A DNA stretch of 64,000 nt, taken from NCBI RefSeq assembly GCF_007997385.1, contig NZ_VOSC01000019.1, positions 327,864 to 391,863 on the forward strand, read 5' to 3'. Source of the DNA: Seonamhaeicola algicola. Lineage in GTDB: Bacteria > Bacteroidota > Bacteroidia > Flavobacteriales > Flavobacteriaceae. Each line of letters opens with the position of its first letter. The stretch's first letter is position 1. The notes beneath the pieces were generated by a model. The model was not told the origin of the DNA and searched no databases. It saw only the letters and a program-made list of their open reading frames with translations. Of the stretch, positions 14,491 through 61,979 are shown piece after piece. The position numbers and the translations under genes are program-made.

Positions 14491-14524
14491 AAAAAAGGCT
14501 GCTTTAAAAGCAGCCTTTTTTTTG
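14491..14524 (+). terminator. Rho-independent terminator after the NlpC/P60 gene
   Basis: AAAGGCTGCTT is followed by its reverse complement AAGCAGCCTTT and a T run (14511-14524). The A run on the other side lets it also serve the convergent TPR gene. Confidence 0.85.
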
Positions 14525-30685: not shown

Positions 30686-30723
30686 AAAAGCGGATAGAAA
30701 CACTGTTTCTATCCGCTTTTTTC
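30686..30723 (+). terminator. Terminator after lpdA
   Basis: A 12-bp GC-containing stem, GCGGATAGAAAC at 30690-30701 against GTTTCTATCCGC at 30705-30716, flanked by A and T runs. The stop codon of a possible small gene on the opposite strand falls inside the hairpin. Confidence 0.9.
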
Positions 30724-54521: not shown

Positions 54522-55196
54522 ATGAATAATTATCTTTTACCTTTTTTAGCAGTAGTTTTAGGTGTAATAATTGCACGCTTTACTAAAAACACAAAATCTT
54601 GGAATACTAAATTACTACTATCTTTTAGTGGCGCTTTTTTATTAGCACTAACGCTGTTTGAACTATTGCCCGAAGTATATCATCACCTAGAAACAAAAAC
54701 AACAGGTCTCTACATTATGGCTGGTATTATGCTTCAAATAATTTTAGAACTTTTCTCAAAAGGCGCTGAACATGGGCATGTACACAACAATGAAAACGAT
54801 AAAACGTTTCCATACGCGTTGTTTTTAAGCTTATGCATTCATAGCTTTTTAGAAGGTTTCTCTATACACGACCATAATGATATGGTTTACGGTGTTTTAA
54901 TTCATAAAATACCCATTGCTACTATTATAAGCATGTTTTTGCTAAAAAGTAATTATGATAAATTTCAAATAGGCGCTTTTTTAATAGTATTTGCATGTAT
55001 GACCCCTTTAGGTACACTTATTTCAAATATTTACGGAGATATGCATAACACCATAAGTATAATAAATGCTTTTGTAATTGGTATGTTTTTCCATATTTCA
55101 ACAACTATACTATTTGAAAGTAGTGATGGCCACAGATTTAATACCTCAAAGTTTATAGCTATAATTTTAGGTGTTGGTATTGCCTATTTAATATAA
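54522..55196 (+). CDS. ZIP-family metal transporter
   Basis: A 224-residue membrane protein with about eight hydrophobic segments and a His-rich cytoplasmic-type loop (GAEHGHVHNNENDK, about residues 86-99). The ZIP signature in helices IV and V is present: HSFLEGFSIHDHN (about 108-120) and VLIHKIPIATIISMF (about 125-139), which carry the metal-binding His and Glu residues. ZIP proteins move Zn2+ or other divalent ions into the cytoplasm. It opens the metal island that continues to 61979; orientation and spacing suggest a shared unit with the DUF4268 gene after it. Confidence 0.88.
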   Translation: MNNYLLPFLAVVLGVIIARFTKNTKSWNTKLLLSFSGAFLLALTLFELLPEVYHHLETKTTGLYIMAGIMLQIILELFSKGAEHGHVHNNENDKTFPYALFLSLCIHSFLEGFSIHDHNDMVYGVLIHKIPIATIISMFLLKSNYDKFQIGAFLIVFACMTPLGTLISNIYGDMHNTISIINAFVIGMFFHISTTILFESSDGHRFNTSKFIAIILGVGIAYLI

Positions 55197-55730: not shown

Positions 55731-55751
55731 TAATGCAACCATGTTGCATTA
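55731..55751. promoter_or_regulatory. Perfect 9-3-9 palindrome, candidate Zur operator (site 1)
   Basis: TAATGCAAC at 55731-55739 and GTTGCATTA at 55743-55751 are exact reverse complements around the spacer CAT. The site ends 12 bases before the -7 element and so covers the -33 region. Dyad size and the metal genes it precedes fit a Fur-family repressor; zinc (Zur) is the best guess because of the COG0523, FolE, ZIP and PA4064-4066-like genes. It differs from the E. coli Fur and Zur boxes. Inference from symmetry and context. Confidence 0.62.
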
Positions 55752-55763
55752 AAACAATTAGGC

Positions 55764-55771
55764 TATATTTG
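55764..55771 (+). promoter_or_regulatory. -7 element of the MerC-FolE-COG0523 operon
   Basis: TATATTTG is an exact -7 match, 26 bases before the start of the MerC-like gene. It lies between and partly inside the two palindromic operator sites, so bound repressor would block it. Confidence 0.55.
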
Positions 55772-55787
55772 CAATACAGTTGCATTA
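55767..55787. promoter_or_regulatory. Second, imperfect operator copy (site 2)
   Basis: The right half GTTGCATTA at 55779-55787 is identical to the right half of site 1. The left half ATTTGCAAT keeps the TGCAA core, with the same three-base spacing. It overlaps the end of the -7 element and the expected transcription start. Two copies, centre to centre 36 bases apart, strengthen the case for a repressor. Confidence 0.55.
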
Positions 55788-55797
55788 ATTTTTATAA

Positions 55798-56208
55798 ATG
55801 AAAATAGCCATAAAAAAACCTGACACTTTAGGTGCTTTAGCTAGCACACTTTGTTTAATACATTGTTTATTAACCCCATTTATATTTTTAGCACAAACTA
55901 AAGTTGCTGCTTGCTGCGCAACTAACGGTGTTCCTAATTGGTGGAAATCTATAGACTTTATTTTTCTAATAATTTCATTTTTTGCAGTATATCAATCAGC
56001 TAAAAACAGTACAAAAAAAACTGTAAAAATGGCTTTGTGGTTTTGCTGGAGCCTTTTATGCTTTTTAATTATAAATGAAAAATTAGCGTGGTTTCACCTC
56101 CCTGAAATACTTATATACCTAACCGCAATTTCTATGGTTATACTTCATGTTTACAACCTTAAATATTGCCAATGTAAAACTGATAATTGCTGTACAAATA
56201 ATGAATAA
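55798..56208 (+). CDS. MerC-domain membrane protein
   Basis: A 136-residue inner-membrane protein with about four hydrophobic segments. The first carries LGALASTLCLIHCLLTPFIF (about residues 11-30) with a Cys/His pair in the membrane, as in MerC, and a second Cys pair CCAT follows at about 39. The C-terminal tail is Cys-rich (KYCQCKTDNCC). MerC moves Hg2+, but there are no other mercury genes here; chromosomal relatives in this phylum are better explained as zinc or metal uptake proteins. First gene of the operon behind the two palindromes, overlapping folE by eight bases. Confidence 0.84.
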   Translation: MKIAIKKPDTLGALASTLCLIHCLLTPFIFLAQTKVAACCATNGVPNWWKSIDFIFLIISFFAVYQSAKNSTKKTVKMALWFCWSLLCFLIINEKLAWFHLPEILIYLTAISMVILHVYNLKYCQCKTDNCCTNNE

Positions 56209-56863
56209 AGATTTAATAGAAAATATAGGAGACAATCACATTTCTTCAAATGTAAACACACCACTATTACCAACTGCTTTTGATAAAAATGATGATGAAA
56301 AAATTAAAACCATTCAGCATCATTTTTCAAAAATAATGGAAACATTAGGCCTAGATTTAACTGATGATAGTTTATCTGGCACGCCATACCGTTTTGCTAA
56401 AATGTATGTAAAAGAATTATTTTATGGCCTAAACCCAGAAAACAAACCTAAACTATCGGTTTTTGAAAATAAGTACAGCTACAACAAAATGCTTGTTGAA
56501 CAAAATATAACTATAGATTCTTCTTGCGAACACCACTTTTTACCAATTACAGGGCACGCACACATTGCATACATACCTAAAGATAAAGTTATTGGGCTAT
56601 CAAAAATTAATAGGTTAGTTGATTATTACGCACACCGCCCGCAAGTACAAGAACGCTTATCACTTCAAATTTTAAAAGACCTCCAAACTATTTTAAACAC
56701 TGAAGATGTTATTGTAATGATAGCCGCAAAACACCTTTGCGTATCTTCCAGAGGTATAAAAGATAAAGATAGTTTTACAACAACTATTGAATATGGTGGC
56801 TGCTTTGAAAAAAAAGCTTACCGAAATGAATTTTTAAACATTGTAAACAATACAACCAAATAA
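56201..56863 (+). CDS. folE: GTP cyclohydrolase I, zinc-type
   Basis: A 220-residue FolE from the start [10 protein letters not shown]; a frame extension to 56147 lies inside the MerC gene and is not used. It makes dihydroneopterin triphosphate from GTP, the first step of folate synthesis. The zinc ligands Cys109, His112 (in SSCEHHF) and Cys180 (in KHLCVSS) are all present, so it needs zinc, unlike the FolE2 type. Catalytic QERLSLQI is intact. Its start ATGA overlaps the MerC stop. Its place in front of a COG0523 gene matches the known link in which COG0523 proteins keep a zinc-dependent FolE active under zinc shortage. Confidence 0.93.
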
Positions 56864-56883
56864 AGACGCTAATCAATATCAAC

Positions 56884-58101
56884 ATGAAAAAATTACCCGT
56901 AACCGTATTAAGTGGCTTTTTAGGTGCAGGAAAAACCACGTTGTTAAATCATATTCTTCATAATAAAGACGGTTTAAAAGTAGCCGTTATTGTTAATGAT
57001 ATGAGTGAAGTTAATATTGATGCGCAATTTATTGAAAATGAAAACACATTATCTAGAACTGAAGAGAAATTAGTTGAAATGAGCAACGGTTGCATTTGTT
57101 GTACCCTACGTGAAGATTTGATGGTTGAAGTTGAAAAACTAGCAGCACAAAATAAATTTGACTATTTATTAATTGAAAGCACAGGCATTAGTGAACCTAT
57201 TCCTGTTGCCCAAACATTTACTTTTGAAAGTGAAGACGGCACAATTGATTTAAGCCGTTTTAGTTACATTGACACCATGGTTACTGTAGTTGATGCTTTC
57301 AATTTTTTAAAAGACTTTTCAAGTCCTGATTACTTAACAACAAGAGCGCTTACAAATATTGAAGGAGATAACCGCACCATTGTTAATTTACTAACAGACC
57401 AAATAGAATTTGCTAATGTTATTTTAATAAACAAAACAGATTTAGTTACTAAACAACAACTAGAAGAATTAAAAGCCATTATTAATTCATTAAATCCTGA
57501 AGCAAAAGTTATTTTCACAAAACAATCTAATGTTGCGTTAAATAACGTTATTAATACTGGTTTGTTTGATTATGCTAAAGCTGAAGCATCGGCAGGTTGG
57601 ATAAAAGAATTAGAAAACGAACACACCCCTGAAACCGAAGAGTATGGTATTGGTTCTTTTGTTTTTAGAAGCAAAAAGCCATTTCATCCAGAGCGTTTTC
57701 TAAACTATTTAAACACAGCTTTTCCACAAAACATTATACGCAGCAAAGGTTTATTTTGGCTAGCTTCAAGACCCAAACAAGCGCTTATTTGGAGTTCGGC
57801 AGGTGGTTCTTGTAAAGCAGACAACGCCGGTGTATGGTGGGCATCAATGCCGTTTTCTGAACGTATAAATTATGCTGCTTTTATTGAAAACCAAAAAGAC
57901 ATTGAAGCCGGTTGGGATGCCCAATTTGGAGACAGAAAAATAGAACTGGTTTTTATTGGCCAATATTTAGAAAAAAACGACATAATTAATCAACTAAACA
58001 CCTGCCTTTTAACCGATGATGAAGTAAAACAATGGAAAAATAATGCATTCACAAAAATTGATAGGTGGCCAATTGAAAATTTTGAAACTTCAAATGCTTA
58101 A
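56884..58101 (+). CDS. COG0523 GTPase, putative zinc metallochaperone (ZigA/YciC type)
   Basis: A 405-residue G3E-family GTPase. Walker A is GFLGAGKTT (residues 11-19), the metal motif CICC is at residues 70-73 in SNGCICC, and the base-recognition motif is INKTD (about 180). A CobW C-terminal domain runs from about residue 250 to the end. This architecture is the ZigA/YciC/ZagA zinc chaperone group, which loads zinc into client enzymes; one known client type is FolE, the gene just upstream. A B12-related role is unlikely, as no cobalamin genes are near. Confidence 0.88.
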
Positions 58102-58123
58102 CTTTAGCAATTAAAACATATGT

Positions 58124-58654
58124 ATGTCTGCTATTAAAATAGGAATTATTACTGTTAGTGATAGAGCTAGCGCTGGCCTTTATGAAGATTTAAGTGGTAA
58201 AGCCATTATAAATACCCTAAATAACTATTTAAAATCACCTTGGAACGAAGTTTACAGCATTATTCCTGATGAACAAACAATTATTGAAGAAACCATTATA
58301 AACATGGTAGATAATGAACAGTGTTGTTTGGTTGTTACAACAGGAGGCACAGGACCCGCTAAACGCGATGTTACTCCTGAAGCTACCGAAGCCGTTTGTG
58401 ACAGAATGATGCCTGGGTTTGGTGAACTTATGCGTGCAGAATCTTTAAAATATGTACCAACCGCAATTCTTTCAAGGCAAACTGCAGGCCTTAGAGGTAG
58501 TAGTTTAATTGTAAACTTACCTGGAAAACCAAAATCTATTCGCGAGTGTTTAGATGCTGTTTTCCCTGCAATACCATATTGTATTGATTTAATGGAAGGT
58601 CCTTTTTTACAGTGTAATGAGCAGGTTATAAAACCATTCAGACCTAAAAAATAA
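58124..58654 (+). CDS. mog: Molybdopterin adenylyltransferase (Mog/MogA family)
   Basis: A 176-residue protein of the MoaB/Mog fold. It has IGIITVSDRASAGLYEDLSG near the start, the conserved TTGGTGPAKRDVTPEAT (about residues 73-89, with the GGTG and the catalytic Asp), and SLIVNLPGKPKSIRECLDAV. Mog activates molybdopterin by adenylation before molybdenum insertion. No other molybdenum cofactor gene is in the window, and the gene is tightly packed between two COG0523 GTPases, 22 and 7 bases away. Its role in a metal-stress operon is unexplained. Confidence 0.88.
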   Translation: MSAIKIGIITVSDRASAGLYEDLSGKAIINTLNNYLKSPWNEVYSIIPDEQTIIEETIINMVDNEQCCLVVTTGGTGPAKRDVTPEATEAVCDRMMPGFGELMRAESLKYVPTAILSRQTAGLRGSSLIVNLPGKPKSIRECLDAVFPAIPYCIDLMEGPFLQCNEQVIKPFRPKK

Positions 58655-58661
58655 CCAAAAA

Positions 58662-59567
58662 ATGGAAGCTATTATTACCATTGTTGGATTTTTAGGTGCT
58701 GGCAAAACCACACTTTTAAAGTATTTAATTGAAAAATTTCAAGCTGAAAACTGGCAGCCATTTGTAATTTTAAACGATTATGAAAACGCCAATATGGATG
58801 TACAACAATTTAGAGAGCAACTTAATTTAAACACCATAAAACCTTTAAGTGGTAGCTGTATTTGTTGCAGTGGTATTGTTGAACTTAGAAACACTGTTAA
58901 CCGCATTCCTGAAAGAAAAAATGGCATTACGCTTATTGAGGCTAACGGCACTTCAGATGCTTGTAGCTTAATGGAATTTTTGGGTGTTGGCCTAAACAAC
59001 AGGTTTTTACCACCAGTACAAATTTCGGTAGTTGATGTTAAAAATTGGCAAAAGCGCCATGAGCATAATGAATTAGAAGCTAACCAAATACAAGTATCTT
59101 CACTCCTAGTTCTAACACATTTAGATGCTGTTAGTTTAAAAAGGAAACAAGCCGTTGTTTCACAATTGAAAATATTAAATCCTTCGGCTGAAATTTTTGA
59201 TGCTAATAGCTTAAATGTTTCATTGCTTCCAAAACTTGTACCTTCAAAAAACACATCAAATAAAATAAATCATTTAAAATCGCATTGGGCGTCATGCTCT
59301 GTAGATTTACCTATTTTACCTTCAGAAAATAGTATTAAAACTATTTGCAAAGCTTTACCAAAAAGTATTTTACGTGTTAAAGGTTGTGCAAAAATTGCCA
59401 ATAATGAAAACTACACGTATTTTGAGCGTAAACCAGACGGTAATATAACCATAAGGCCTTTTAAAGGACAACCAATTACGGGCGCAAAACTACTTACCAT
59501 TGGTCCAGGAAGCAAACCATCGGTTTTAGAAAACGCCATTCAATCTAGTATTCATTTAGTAAAATAA
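58662..59567 (+). CDS. Second COG0523-family GTPase, divergent
   Basis: A 301-residue G3E-family protein with Walker [10 protein letters not shown] (residues 9-17) and the metal motif CICC at residues 66-69 (GSCICCSG). Where family members read NKxD for base recognition it reads LTHLD, so the nucleotide preference may differ or be weak. Near residues 238-300 there is only a short C-terminal domain (KGCAKIANNENYTYFERKPD), smaller than the CobW_C domain of the first copy. It may be a distinct chaperone with its own client. It is the last gene of the operon; the next gene has its own promoter. Confidence 0.8.
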   Translation: MEAIITIVGFLGAGKTTLLKYLIEKFQAENWQPFVILNDYENANMDVQQFREQLNLNTIKPLSGSCICCSGIVELRNTVNRIPERKNGITLIEANGTSDACSLMEFLGVGLNNRFLPPVQISVVDVKNWQKRHEHNELEANQIQVSSLLVLTHLDAVSLKRKQAVVSQLKILNPSAEIFDANSLNVSLLPKLVPSKNTSNKINHLKSHWASCSVDLPILPSENSIKTICKALPKSILRVKGCAKIANNENYTYFERKPDGNITIRPFKGQPITGAKLLTIGPGSKPSVLENAIQSSIHLVK

Positions 59568-59572
59568 TCTTT

Positions 59573-59580
59573 TATTTTTG
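59573..59580 (+). promoter_or_regulatory. -7 element of the ABC transporter unit
   Basis: TATTTTTG is an exact match, five bases after the COG0523 stop and 11 before the next ATG. The predicted leader is about five bases. The palindrome of the upstream operon is not repeated here, so these genes may be controlled differently or by read-through. Confidence 0.48.
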
Positions 59581-59591
59581 CATTTTTTATC

Positions 59592-60221
59592 ATGATTCAA
59601 ACGCAAAATTTAACGTTTCAATATAAAAATAGTTCAAATGTATTATCATTTCCCAACATACATTTAAAAACAAACGAACACTTACTTATTTTAGGAAAAT
59701 CTGGCATTGGCAAAACTACCTTGCTGCATCTACTAGCTGGTTTATTAAGCCCAAAAACAGGTAATATTGCTATAAACAATGTAAATATTTCTACTTTAAA
59801 CAGTAAAAAACTAGATAAATTTAGAGGTAGTAATATTGGTATGGTTTTTCAAAAAAAACATGCCATACCTTCGTTAACCGTTTTTGAAAATTTAAAGGCA
59901 CGTTTATACTTTTCAAAAAAAGAAAAACCAGATAGTTATTTAAATCAAACTTTAGAACAATTACATTTAACCGACTTTAAAAATAGTAAGGTGAATGAAA
60001 TTAGTGAAGGACAATTACAACGCTTAGGCATAGCACTTTCGGTAATACATAATCCGCAAATTATTTTGGCCGATGAACCCACTTCTAGTTTAGATAATGA
60101 AAACTGTAAAGCCGTTATAAAACTACTTATAGAACAGGCCGAAAAAAACAACGCGCACTTAATTGTTATTACGCATGATGAGCGTATTATGCCATTTTTT
60201 AATAACACCCTTACATTATGA
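59592..60221 (+). CDS. ABC transporter ATP-binding protein (LolD/MacB type)
   Basis: A 209-residue ABC ATPase. Walker A is LGKSGIGKTTLL (about residues 35-46), the Q-loop is IGMVFQKKHAIPS, the signature is NEISEGQLQRLGIALSVIHN (about 135-154, with SEGQ in place of the usual SGGQ), Walker B is IILADEPTSSLD and the switch His is in VITHDERI. This is the type seen with MacB/LolD-like permeases. It is followed with a four-base overlap by the permease gene. Relatives in the Pseudomonas PA4064 and Vibrio zrg clusters are Zur-regulated. Confidence 0.88.
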   Translation: MIQTQNLTFQYKNSSNVLSFPNIHLKTNEHLLILGKSGIGKTTLLHLLAGLLSPKTGNIAINNVNISTLNSKKLDKFRGSNIGMVFQKKHAIPSLTVFENLKARLYFSKKEKPDSYLNQTLEQLHLTDFKNSKVNEISEGQLQRLGIALSVIHNPQIILADEPTSSLDNENCKAVIKLLIEQAEKNNAHLIVITHDERIMPFFNNTLTL

Positions 60222-61555
60222 ATATTTGGAAAATAAGCATAAAAAACCTAAAAAATAAAGCATTTTACACAGGTTTAAGCATTATAATTTTAGCCTTAAG
60301 CATCACATTACTACTTGGTATTAAACAAATACAGCAATCTTTTAAATATCAAACTGAAAATAATTTAGGTAATATTGATATGGTTATTGGCGCAAAAGGC
60401 AGCCCATTGCAACTCATTTTAGCATCGGTATTACACATTGATAATCCTACTGGAAATATTTCGTATACCGAAGCAAAAACGTTGGCTAAAAACCGATTGA
60501 TAAAATCGGCTATCCCAATATCTTATGGCGATAATTACAAAGGCTACAGAATTGTTGGAACCAACAACAACTTTTATACACTTTATAATGCTGAATTAAA
60601 TAACGGCCGTTTTGCAAATACAGCCATGGAAGTTGTAATTGGTGCTACCATTGCCAACAAGCTAAACTTAAAATTAGGCGATACTTTTAAAAGCGCTCAT
60701 GGTTTAATTGATAATACTGTTGATGTACACGATAACGAGTTAACCGTTGTTGGTATTTTAAAACCTACAGAAAAAGTAATTGACCGCTTAATTATTACTC
60801 CCTTAGAAACCATTTGGGATGTACACAACCACAATGATGAAGTGCATAATGAAAATGATGAAAATGAACATAATCATGATGAAGATGCTCATAAAACTGA
60901 AGAAGAACACACACACGAGCATACCCACAATGATACACATGAACATGAAGAGCATCATAACATCGAAAAACATTCAGATAATCATGAAGAAGATCATGCG
61001 CATGAAAACAAGCAAATTACAGCTTTATTAGTAACCTTTAGAAACCCTATGGGCTTACTAACTTTACCCAGAAAAATAAACGACACTAGCAATTTACAAG
61101 CTGCTTTACCTAAATATGAATTAGATAGATTATATGAATTTACAAGTATAGGTTTTAAAACCATTACCTGGATAGCCTATTTAATTTTAATAATTTCTGG
61201 CATCACAATTTTTATAAACTTATATAAAATGGTAAAAGAACGCGCTTATGATTTGGCCTTATTACGCAGTTATGGTGCTAGTAATTTTCAGCTAATTAAA
61301 ATGGTTTTTTATGAGGGTTTTATAGCCGCATTTTTAGCATTTATTCTTGGGCTAACTATTGTTAAAATTGGCACTTATGCCCTAATTAAATTTAGTAACT
61401 TAGGCATGAAAGCACACATTATTCAACCATTAAACATACAAGATGGTATACAAATTGCGGTATTAGTTTTTATAATGGTAACTTTGTCTATAGCGTTTGC
61501 TATTTACCCCATTTTAAAAATGAATATTTCAACTATTTTAAGTAATGAAAAATAA
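60218..61555 (+). CDS. ABC transporter permease with histidine-rich loop (MacB/FtsX fold)
   Basis: A 445-residue inner-membrane protein: one membrane segment near residues 16-36, a large extracytoplasmic domain, then three segments (about 310-332, 362-385, 408-430) as in the MacB/FtsX/LolE fold. The extracytoplasmic domain contains an insert at about residues 200-265 with 18 histidines among Asp/Glu/Asn (HEHTHNDTHEHEEHH), a clear metal-binding stretch. This matches the Zur-regulated ABC permeases related to PA4065. The ATPase gene overlaps it by four bases (ATGA) and the DUF3299-like gene overlaps its end by 11. Confidence 0.87.
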   Translation: MNIWKISIKNLKNKAFYTGLSIIILALSITLLLGIKQIQQSFKYQTENNLGNIDMVIGAKGSPLQLILASVLHIDNPTGNISYTEAKTLAKNRLIKSAIPISYGDNYKGYRIVGTNNNFYTLYNAELNNGRFANTAMEVVIGATIANKLNLKLGDTFKSAHGLIDNTVDVHDNELTVVGILKPTEKVIDRLIITPLETIWDVHNHNDEVHNENDENEHNHDEDAHKTEEEHTHEHTHNDTHEHEEHHNIEKHSDNHEEDHAHENKQITALLVTFRNPMGLLTLPRKINDTSNLQAALPKYELDRLYEFTSIGFKTITWIAYLILIISGITIFINLYKMVKERAYDLALLRSYGASNFQLIKMVFYEGFIAAFLAFILGLTIVKIGTYALIKFSNLGMKAHIIQPLNIQDGIQIAVLVFIMVTLSIAFAIYPILKMNISTILSNEK

Positions 61556-61979
61556 AATATTAATTGGCTTATTATTAACAACTTGTGTTTCATTCAGTCA
61601 AACCAATATAACTTGGAATGATTTGGCAAAAGTTACATTTGAAGAGAAATTTTTACCTGCTTATGATGAAGCTTTTTTAGTACCAACGTTTTCAAACACT
61701 TTAAAAGCTTTAGAAGGAAAATATGTTACCATTAAGGGATATTTTTTAAATATTGCTCCAGAAGAAAAAATATATATACTTTCAAAAGGCCCTATGTCTT
61801 CTTGCTTTTTTTGCGGTGTTGGTGGCCCAGAAACAGCAGTAGAATTAGAATTTGATAATACGCAAAACTTCAAAACCGATAATATTGTTTTAGTTACCGG
61901 CAAGTTAAAATTAAATGCCGTTGATGTAGATCATTTTAATTATATATTAACAGATTGCACTTTAAAATTAACACAGTAG
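61545..61979 (+). CDS. Small exported protein, DUF3299-like
   Basis: A 144-residue protein with a signal peptide (about residues 1-19, ending SFSQ). The mature part has the pattern of DUF3299: LKALEGKYVTIKGYFLNIAP, a Cys pair in SSCFFCGVGGPETAVELEFD (about residues 84-103), and VTGKLKLNAVDVDHFNYIL. Proteins of this type accompany MacB-like ABC genes in Zur-regulated clusters. It probably works with the ABC pair in the periplasm. The partner DUF2796 zinc-binding protein found in those clusters is absent here, perhaps replaced by the His-rich loop of the permease. Confidence 0.8.
   Translation: MKNKILIGLLLTTCVSFSQTNITWNDLAKVTFEEKFLPAYDEAFLVPTFSNTLKALEGKYVTIKGYFLNIAPEEKIYILSKGPMSSCFFCGVGGPETAVELEFDNTQNFKTDNIVLVTGKLKLNAVDVDHFNYILTDCTLKLTQ

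Follow-up and report, generated by a model that had tools for sequence, protein, structure and literature searches.

Introduction

The zinc-responsive Zur regulators of Actinobacteria, Bacilli, Proteobacteria and Cyanobacteria are Fur-family dimers that bind palindromes lying over promoter elements (PMC6103462). The Zur box of E. coli has the consensus TRWNAYRWTATAWYRTNWCA, and both znuA of S. coelicolor and yciC of B. subtilis have paired Zur boxes, at −35 and −10 (PMC6103462). The sensory cysteine of these proteins is essential: the C79S substitution in S. coelicolor Zur virtually abolishes DNA binding, and C88S is the corresponding case in E. coli (PMC6103462). The control of COG0523 genes by Zur is well documented in other phyla (PMC2770081). 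In Vibrio, the zinc-regulated ZrgABCDE operon encodes an ABC permease and ATPase outside the ZnuBC family (PMC9817125).

Zinc regulation in Bacteroidota has hardly been studied. Two Zur reviews make no mention of this phylum, and a paper of 2025 on the flavobacterium Riemerella described its zinc genes as previously unstudied (PMC11960050). No Bacteroidota Zur box was found in the literature searched, which did not extend to RegPrecise and subscription papers, where an earlier description is possible.

Here, a 64,000-nucleotide stretch of the Seonamhaeicola algicola genome (the window) was analyzed. It was concluded from sequence comparisons that two palindromes over one promoter very probably form the double operator of an autoregulated Fur-family repressor, Zur-like and responsive to zinc, in marine Flavobacteriia. 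Such a system would resemble the known Zur systems in its Fur-family dimer, in the palindrome over promoter elements, and in having COG0523 and TonB-receptor targets (PMC6103462). It differs from them in the half-site TGCAAC with an N3 spacer, in the flavobacterial −33/TAnnTTTG promoter, in the MerC protein that heads the operon, and in a box that, for most genomes, also precedes the gene of the regulator itself. By analogy, the mechanism would be an ordinary one; what is new lies in the motif, in the subgroup of the regulator, in the operon headed by MerC and in a box shared with efflux operons.

Probable Operator Boxes and Promoter Elements

The following elements were assigned in the promoter region:

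55731–55751, no strand, operator box 1, a perfect 9-3-9 palindrome TAATGCAAC-CAT-GTTGCATTA
55744–55746, + strand, TTG of the putative −33 element, in the right half of box 1 (read from the sequence)
55764–55771, + strand, −7 element TATATTTG of a sigma-A promoter, matching TAnnTTTG (PMC9723704)
55770–55784, no strand, operator box 2, TGCAATACAGTTGCA, one mismatch to the motif

The core of box 1, TGCAAC-N3-GTTGCA, occupied positions 55734–55748 over the −33 region. Box 2, at a distance of 36 bp, had the right half GTTGCATTA in common with box 1, followed by the same TTA, and overlapped both the 3′ end of TATATTTG and the predicted transcription start. The original prediction had described exactly this arrangement, a perfect palindrome over the −33 region and an imperfect copy with an identical right half over the −7 element and the start, and both its sequences and its coordinates were correct.

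The flavobacterial sigma-A −7 box, TAnnTTTG, is located at −12 to −5 (PMC9723704), which places the start near 55776, within box 2. The TTG at 55744–55746 lies 17 bp 5′ of TATATTTG and would represent the −33 element, a distance with which the position of box 1 over the −33 region agrees. Relative to TATATTTG, the centres of box 1 and box 2 were at +23 and −13, respectively, at or adjoining the offset peaks conserved in relatives. In a box at the −13 offset, the first TG is at the same time part of the TTTG in the −7 element, while a box at +23 to +25 provides the TTG at −33; both placements would be expected to block the polymerase.

Genes Behind the Promoter

The promoter was followed by a run of eight genes (55798–61979), and a further metal transporter gene was located 5′ of the operator:

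54522–55196, + strand, ZIP-family metal transporter (Pfam PF02535, 1.5e-19)
55798–56208, + strand, MerC-domain membrane protein, first gene of the run (Pfam PF03203, 8.9e-19)
56204–56863, + strand, GTP cyclohydrolase I, FolE (Pfam PF01227, 2.8e-59; NCBIfam FolE)
56884–58101, + strand, COG0523 GTPase, ZigA-like zinc metallochaperone (NCBIfam ZigA, 5.9e-171)
58124–58654, + strand, MoCF_biosynth (MogA/MoaB-like) protein (Pfam PF00994, 1.7e-27)
58662–59567, + strand, second, shorter COG0523 GTPase (Pfam PF02492, 4.2e-27)
59592–60221, + strand, ABC transporter ATPase (Pfam PF00005, 3.5e-31)
60218–61555, + strand, FtsX/MacB-type permease (Pfam PF02687, PF12704)
61545–61979, + strand, small protein with an N-terminal hydrophobic segment, last gene (no family match)

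The gaps within the run did not exceed 25 bp and several genes overlapped, so a single transcript is likely, and the eight genes are likely to constitute an operon. The first COG0523 protein contained the CxCC motif (as GCICC) and scored 568.7 bits over nearly the full NCBIfam ZigA model, just below the cut-off of 600 bits; hence, it was named ZigA-like.

In other phyla, the FolE under Zur control is usually a zinc-independent isozyme. In contrast, the FolE of the window retained the zinc-ligand motifs CEHHF and HLC. The window copy was one of four GTP cyclohydrolase I genes in the genome (C1:384175, C1:514971, C28:2017 and C29:647529).

The permease carried a long His-rich (His/Asp/Glu-rich) segment (HEHTHNDTHEHEEHH...). 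Its gene stands in one run with those of an ABC ATPase and of the COG0523 GTPases, and it is possibly a zinc transporter. The window operon would resemble the Vibrio ZrgABCDE system (PMC9817125) in being zinc-regulated and in encoding an ABC permease and ATPase that fall outside ZnuBC. However, the last gene (61545) had no DUF3299 match, and a Zrg-type identity of the genes at 59592–61979 was rejected.

Box Occurrences in the S. algicola Genome

The candidate regulon was drawn from pattern searches of the genome, in which only 2 boxes were perfect and 10 were within one mismatch of the motif. Seven of these ten were in promoter position. The other three lay inside coding regions (L026, L029 and L031), close in number to the reversed-pattern background of 4, and were set aside as chance. 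Thus, the motif was not frequent and unlinked to metal genes, the outcome that had been named beforehand as damaging to the prediction.

The promoter boxes included those of the window operon and of the gene for a Fur-family regulator. The box in the regulator's own promoter, TGCAACCAAGTTGCT, had one mismatch and was ~22 bp upstream. Other boxes in promoter position preceded the genes of an AztD-like zinc chaperone (L033; NCBIfam AztD, 6e-25), of a small secreted protein accompanied by a TonB receptor (L028) and of a thioredoxin-reductase-like (TrxR-like) oxidoreductase (L014), as well as an efflux operon (L032/L205). The motif search of the window placed no box before the ZIP transporter gene (54522). 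A relaxed pattern, TGCAA-N5-TTGCA, matched 11 sites in the genome against 8 for the reversed control, and therefore added no reliable targets. Beyond the ten sites of these genome searches, boxes within coding sequence at L188, L189, L191, L196, L199 and L200, in the SufD-like genes L008 and L207, and in a tandem repeat at L194 were likewise discounted as due to chance or to repeats of another kind.

The Regulator

The regulator, Zur1, is encoded at C25:48688–49062 (~127 aa), not beside merC as in relatives, where the two genes are divergent. Its close relatives occurred in Algibacter, Hyunsoonleella, Winogradskyella and Tenacibaculum. The protein belonged to the Fur superfamily (PF01475, 37.5 bits against a cut-off of 23.1), and the Fur of the genome (L001) was another protein, which matched the Fur family far more strongly. 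The best sequence matches in the PDB were the Zur proteins of M. tuberculosis (MtFurB), E. coli and S. coelicolor. A structural model of moderate confidence (pLDDT 78.6, pTM 0.66) gave the Zur of Synechococcus (7ne9) as the best fold match, together with that of S. coelicolor (7vo0); Fur and PerR were close behind, so the predicted likeness of fold extends to these as well.

Among 105 sequences, the four cysteines of the structural zinc site with its two CxxC motifs (Cys89, Cys92, Cys123 and Cys126) were invariant. The sensory residues were nearly as well conserved: H84 and H86 in 105 sequences, H58 in 104 and C72 in 102. His58, Cys72, His84 and His86 aligned with D65, C79, H85 and H87 of sensory site 2 of S. 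coelicolor Zur. Thus, the predicted sensory site would be of the N3S type, with His58 in place of the site-2 Asp, rather than N2OS as in S. coelicolor Zur. Compared with S. coelicolor Zur and M. tuberculosis FurB, the sensory Cys and His and the four structural Cys were aligned at ~25% overall identity, and the regulator possessed two additional invariant cysteines, Cys75 and Cys97.

The score for the curated Zur equivalog NF008646 was 31.4 bits, against a cut-off of 167. That model describes the E. coli-type Zur, and a distant Zur is still allowed; hence the name Zur-like. With a score so far below the cut-off, the identity of the metal rests on the ligands and the gene neighbours. The regulator is probably a Zur-like zinc sensor, and zinc-dependent DNA binding is predicted for it.

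Conservation of the Box in Relatives

In an exact-pattern search, 21 of 59 related genomes had the box, compared with 2 for the reversed pattern. In several of these relatives, the box was flanked on one side by merC and on the other, in divergent orientation, by the gene of a ~126-aa Fur-family protein.

Further, 80 regulator loci were collected by scanning public genomes with an alignment of the regulator, and the 250 bp before each regulator gene were searched with no motif assumed. TGCAAC with a spacer of 3 was the commonest exact 6-bp palindrome (55 of the 80 loci), and the other high-ranking half-sites were mostly shifted registers of the same box. With up to one mismatch allowed, the box was present within 250 bp upstream of 74 of the 80 orthologous regulators, compared with 0.35% of random windows from those loci. 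These counts supported the original prediction of a metal-linked Fur/Zur-type operator differing from the proteobacterial boxes, and direct comparison of TGCAAC-N3-GTTGCA with the E. coli consensus confirmed the difference.

The duplication was conserved as well. Two boxes were found upstream of the regulator at 63 of the 80 loci, 59 of the pairs being 37–39 bp apart, one base or more above the 36 bp of the window pair. The box centres had preferred offsets from TAnnTTTG (+9, −13, +24/25 and +47/48), which indicates that the boxes are placed on promoter elements. A symmetrised logo of 120 sites consisted of an invariant TGCAAC core and a weaker A/T-rich flank.

Of 29 MerC orthologue loci, taken independently of the regulator gene, 18 carried a box of no more than one mismatch within the 330 bp upstream, while no control window had a site with fewer than 3 mismatches. 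The remaining 11 loci, a few of them cut by contig ends, were without a clear box. Among 151 genomes of the family, a perfect box tracked a strong orthologue of the regulator (18 of 23 genomes against 26 of 128, p = 1.4e-7). Outside the family, orthologues at L237–L249 and L251 had a box, either perfect or with 1–2 mismatches, and L257 had two perfect ones; no box was found at L250 and L252–L256.

In many genomes (L074, L049, L079, L082, L102, L115 and others), an ABC ATPase gene, not merC, was divergent from the regulator; next to it came the genes of a DUF3526/ABC-2 permease and of another membrane protein, and then often merC. The ATPase and DUF3526/ABC-2 permease set is a candidate for a further zinc-linked ABC system. 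In several genomes (L149–L154), a related Fur-family clade adjoined a TrxR-like gene. The palindromes there were of the types TGCGA-N5-TCGCA and TGCAA-N5-TCGCA, which would fit a drift of the operator in step with its regulator.

Proposed Mechanism

We infer DNA binding, zinc as the signal and the direction of regulation as follows. When zinc is sufficient, the zinc-loaded dimer would bind box 1 at −33 and box 2 at the −7 element and start, and with both boxes occupied the promoter would be closed to RNA polymerase. Under zinc scarcity, the repressor would be released and MerC, the FolE copy, the two COG0523 metallochaperones and the ABC transporter would be made. The window operon would then be a zinc-sparing and zinc-supply operon, and the same box would control the regulator's own gene and those of the AztD-like chaperone, the TonB receptor and the TrxR-like oxidoreductase. 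The ZIP transporter gene without a box, the zinc-ligand motifs of FolE, the low Zur score of the regulator and the MerC loci that lack a clear box count against the zinc-repressor reading.

Operator and regulator occur in a large number of marine Flavobacteriia as well as in further families and classes of the phylum, and offer a handle on how these bacteria may cope with low zinc. The regulon can be read from genomes, and the promoter is a candidate zinc-responsive element for genetic tools in Flavobacteriia.

A Second Regulator and the Box of Efflux Operons

A second Fur-family clade, Zur2, had the same sensory and structural residues as Zur1 and a similar recognition helix. In S. algicola, Zur2 (L002) was associated with a czc-type efflux operon at C28:288.7 kb, and a box was located at the start of a CzcA-type operon:

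L205:2540–2554 (G000:C28:282539, this genome), efflux box

Twenty Zur2 loci were fetched regardless of any box at the operon start. CzcA was encoded at 17 of them, and 11 of these 17 had a box with at most 2 mismatches before the first gene; at the other three loci, a TonB receptor replaced CzcA and no box was found at the operon start. In all 17 boxed promoters (the 11 and 6 others), the box centre was exactly 20 bp before TAnnTTTG; these promoters, at L205, L208, L210, L214, L215, L220–L225, L227, L176, L183, L186, L190 and L168, belong to CzcA-type efflux or TonB-receptor operons. The consensus was TTTGCAACaC.(G/A)TTGCAttAAA, i.e., TTTGCAAC-N3-(G/A)TTGCA, and the TTG of the right half was 14 bp from TAnnTTTG, compared with 17 bp in the window. 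Near-identical boxes also adjoined Zur2 genes with divergent TonB receptors (L007 and L010).

A near-identical box on efflux operons is not predicted by a pure zinc-uptake repressor and counts against that simple form of the proposal. The fixed 20-bp offset fits an activator, and a conserved repressor site could look alike. We tentatively suggest, as a possibility with the odds against it, that in Bacteroidota one operator serves two Fur-family zinc sensors with opposite jobs, Zur1 repressing supply through paired boxes and Zur2 acting at the single box of the czc operon, probably as a zinc-dependent activator. If so, supply and efflux would be set by competition or by a division of labour at one motif; a real sharing of the efflux box would in any case raise the new question of how two sensors divide one motif.

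The same observations allow a different reading of the window itself, namely that Zur2, alone or together with Zur1, binds the boxes there, so that the activity of the operon would mirror the balance between two sensors with a shared operator. The common residues and recognition helix, as well as the near-identical boxes at Zur2 efflux operons and beside Zur2 and TonB receptor genes, are consistent with it. However, in relatives with merC the window-type boxes adjoined Zur1 and not Zur2, and the efflux boxes were single, fixed at +20 and often asymmetric (ATTGCA), whereas the merC and zur boxes were mostly paired and at other offsets. A role of Zur2 at the window boxes was consequently considered unlikely.

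Identity of the Metal and Chance Expectation

MerC was named for mercury uptake in mer operons. This link and the score of the regulator below the curated Zur cut-off would suit a Fur-family repressor of the operon that responds to another metal (e.g., cadmium, mercury, cobalt or manganese), with MerC conferring metal resistance. Against this, neither merA, merT nor merP adjoined the MerC gene in the window, the neighbouring genes encoded ZigA-like and FolE proteins, the wider box set extended to an AztD-like zinc chaperone, and characterised Zur proteins have such a sensory Cys. Another metal was thus regarded as improbable, and the Zur-like zinc sensor was retained.

A single 9-3-9 palindrome carried little weight of its own. 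Three perfect 9-3-9 palindromes were present in the 64-kb window, with 1.05 expected in Markov-1 sequence, so a lone one is insignificant and was rejected as evidence. The further two were AGGCTGCTTTAAAAGCAGCCT at 14496–14516 and GATAGAAACACTGTTTCTATC at 30693–30713; the original statement that the window held no other such palindrome was therefore true of the exact sequence and false of the class. With up to two mismatches, TGCAAC-N3-GTTGCA was found 3 times in the window, without excess over shuffles.

That the palindromes are a chance occurrence, or belong to an unrelated dimeric regulator, would account for a motif class expected once per 64 kb but is scarcely credible given the duplication of the box, its conservation across families and classes, and its co-location with one Fur-family gene. 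Markov-1 sequences of 64 kb averaged 0.25 boxes when up to one mismatch was allowed and 0.025 when none was, and two boxes within 60 bp were found in none of 40 such sequences. The pair of boxes 36 bp apart is beyond chance.
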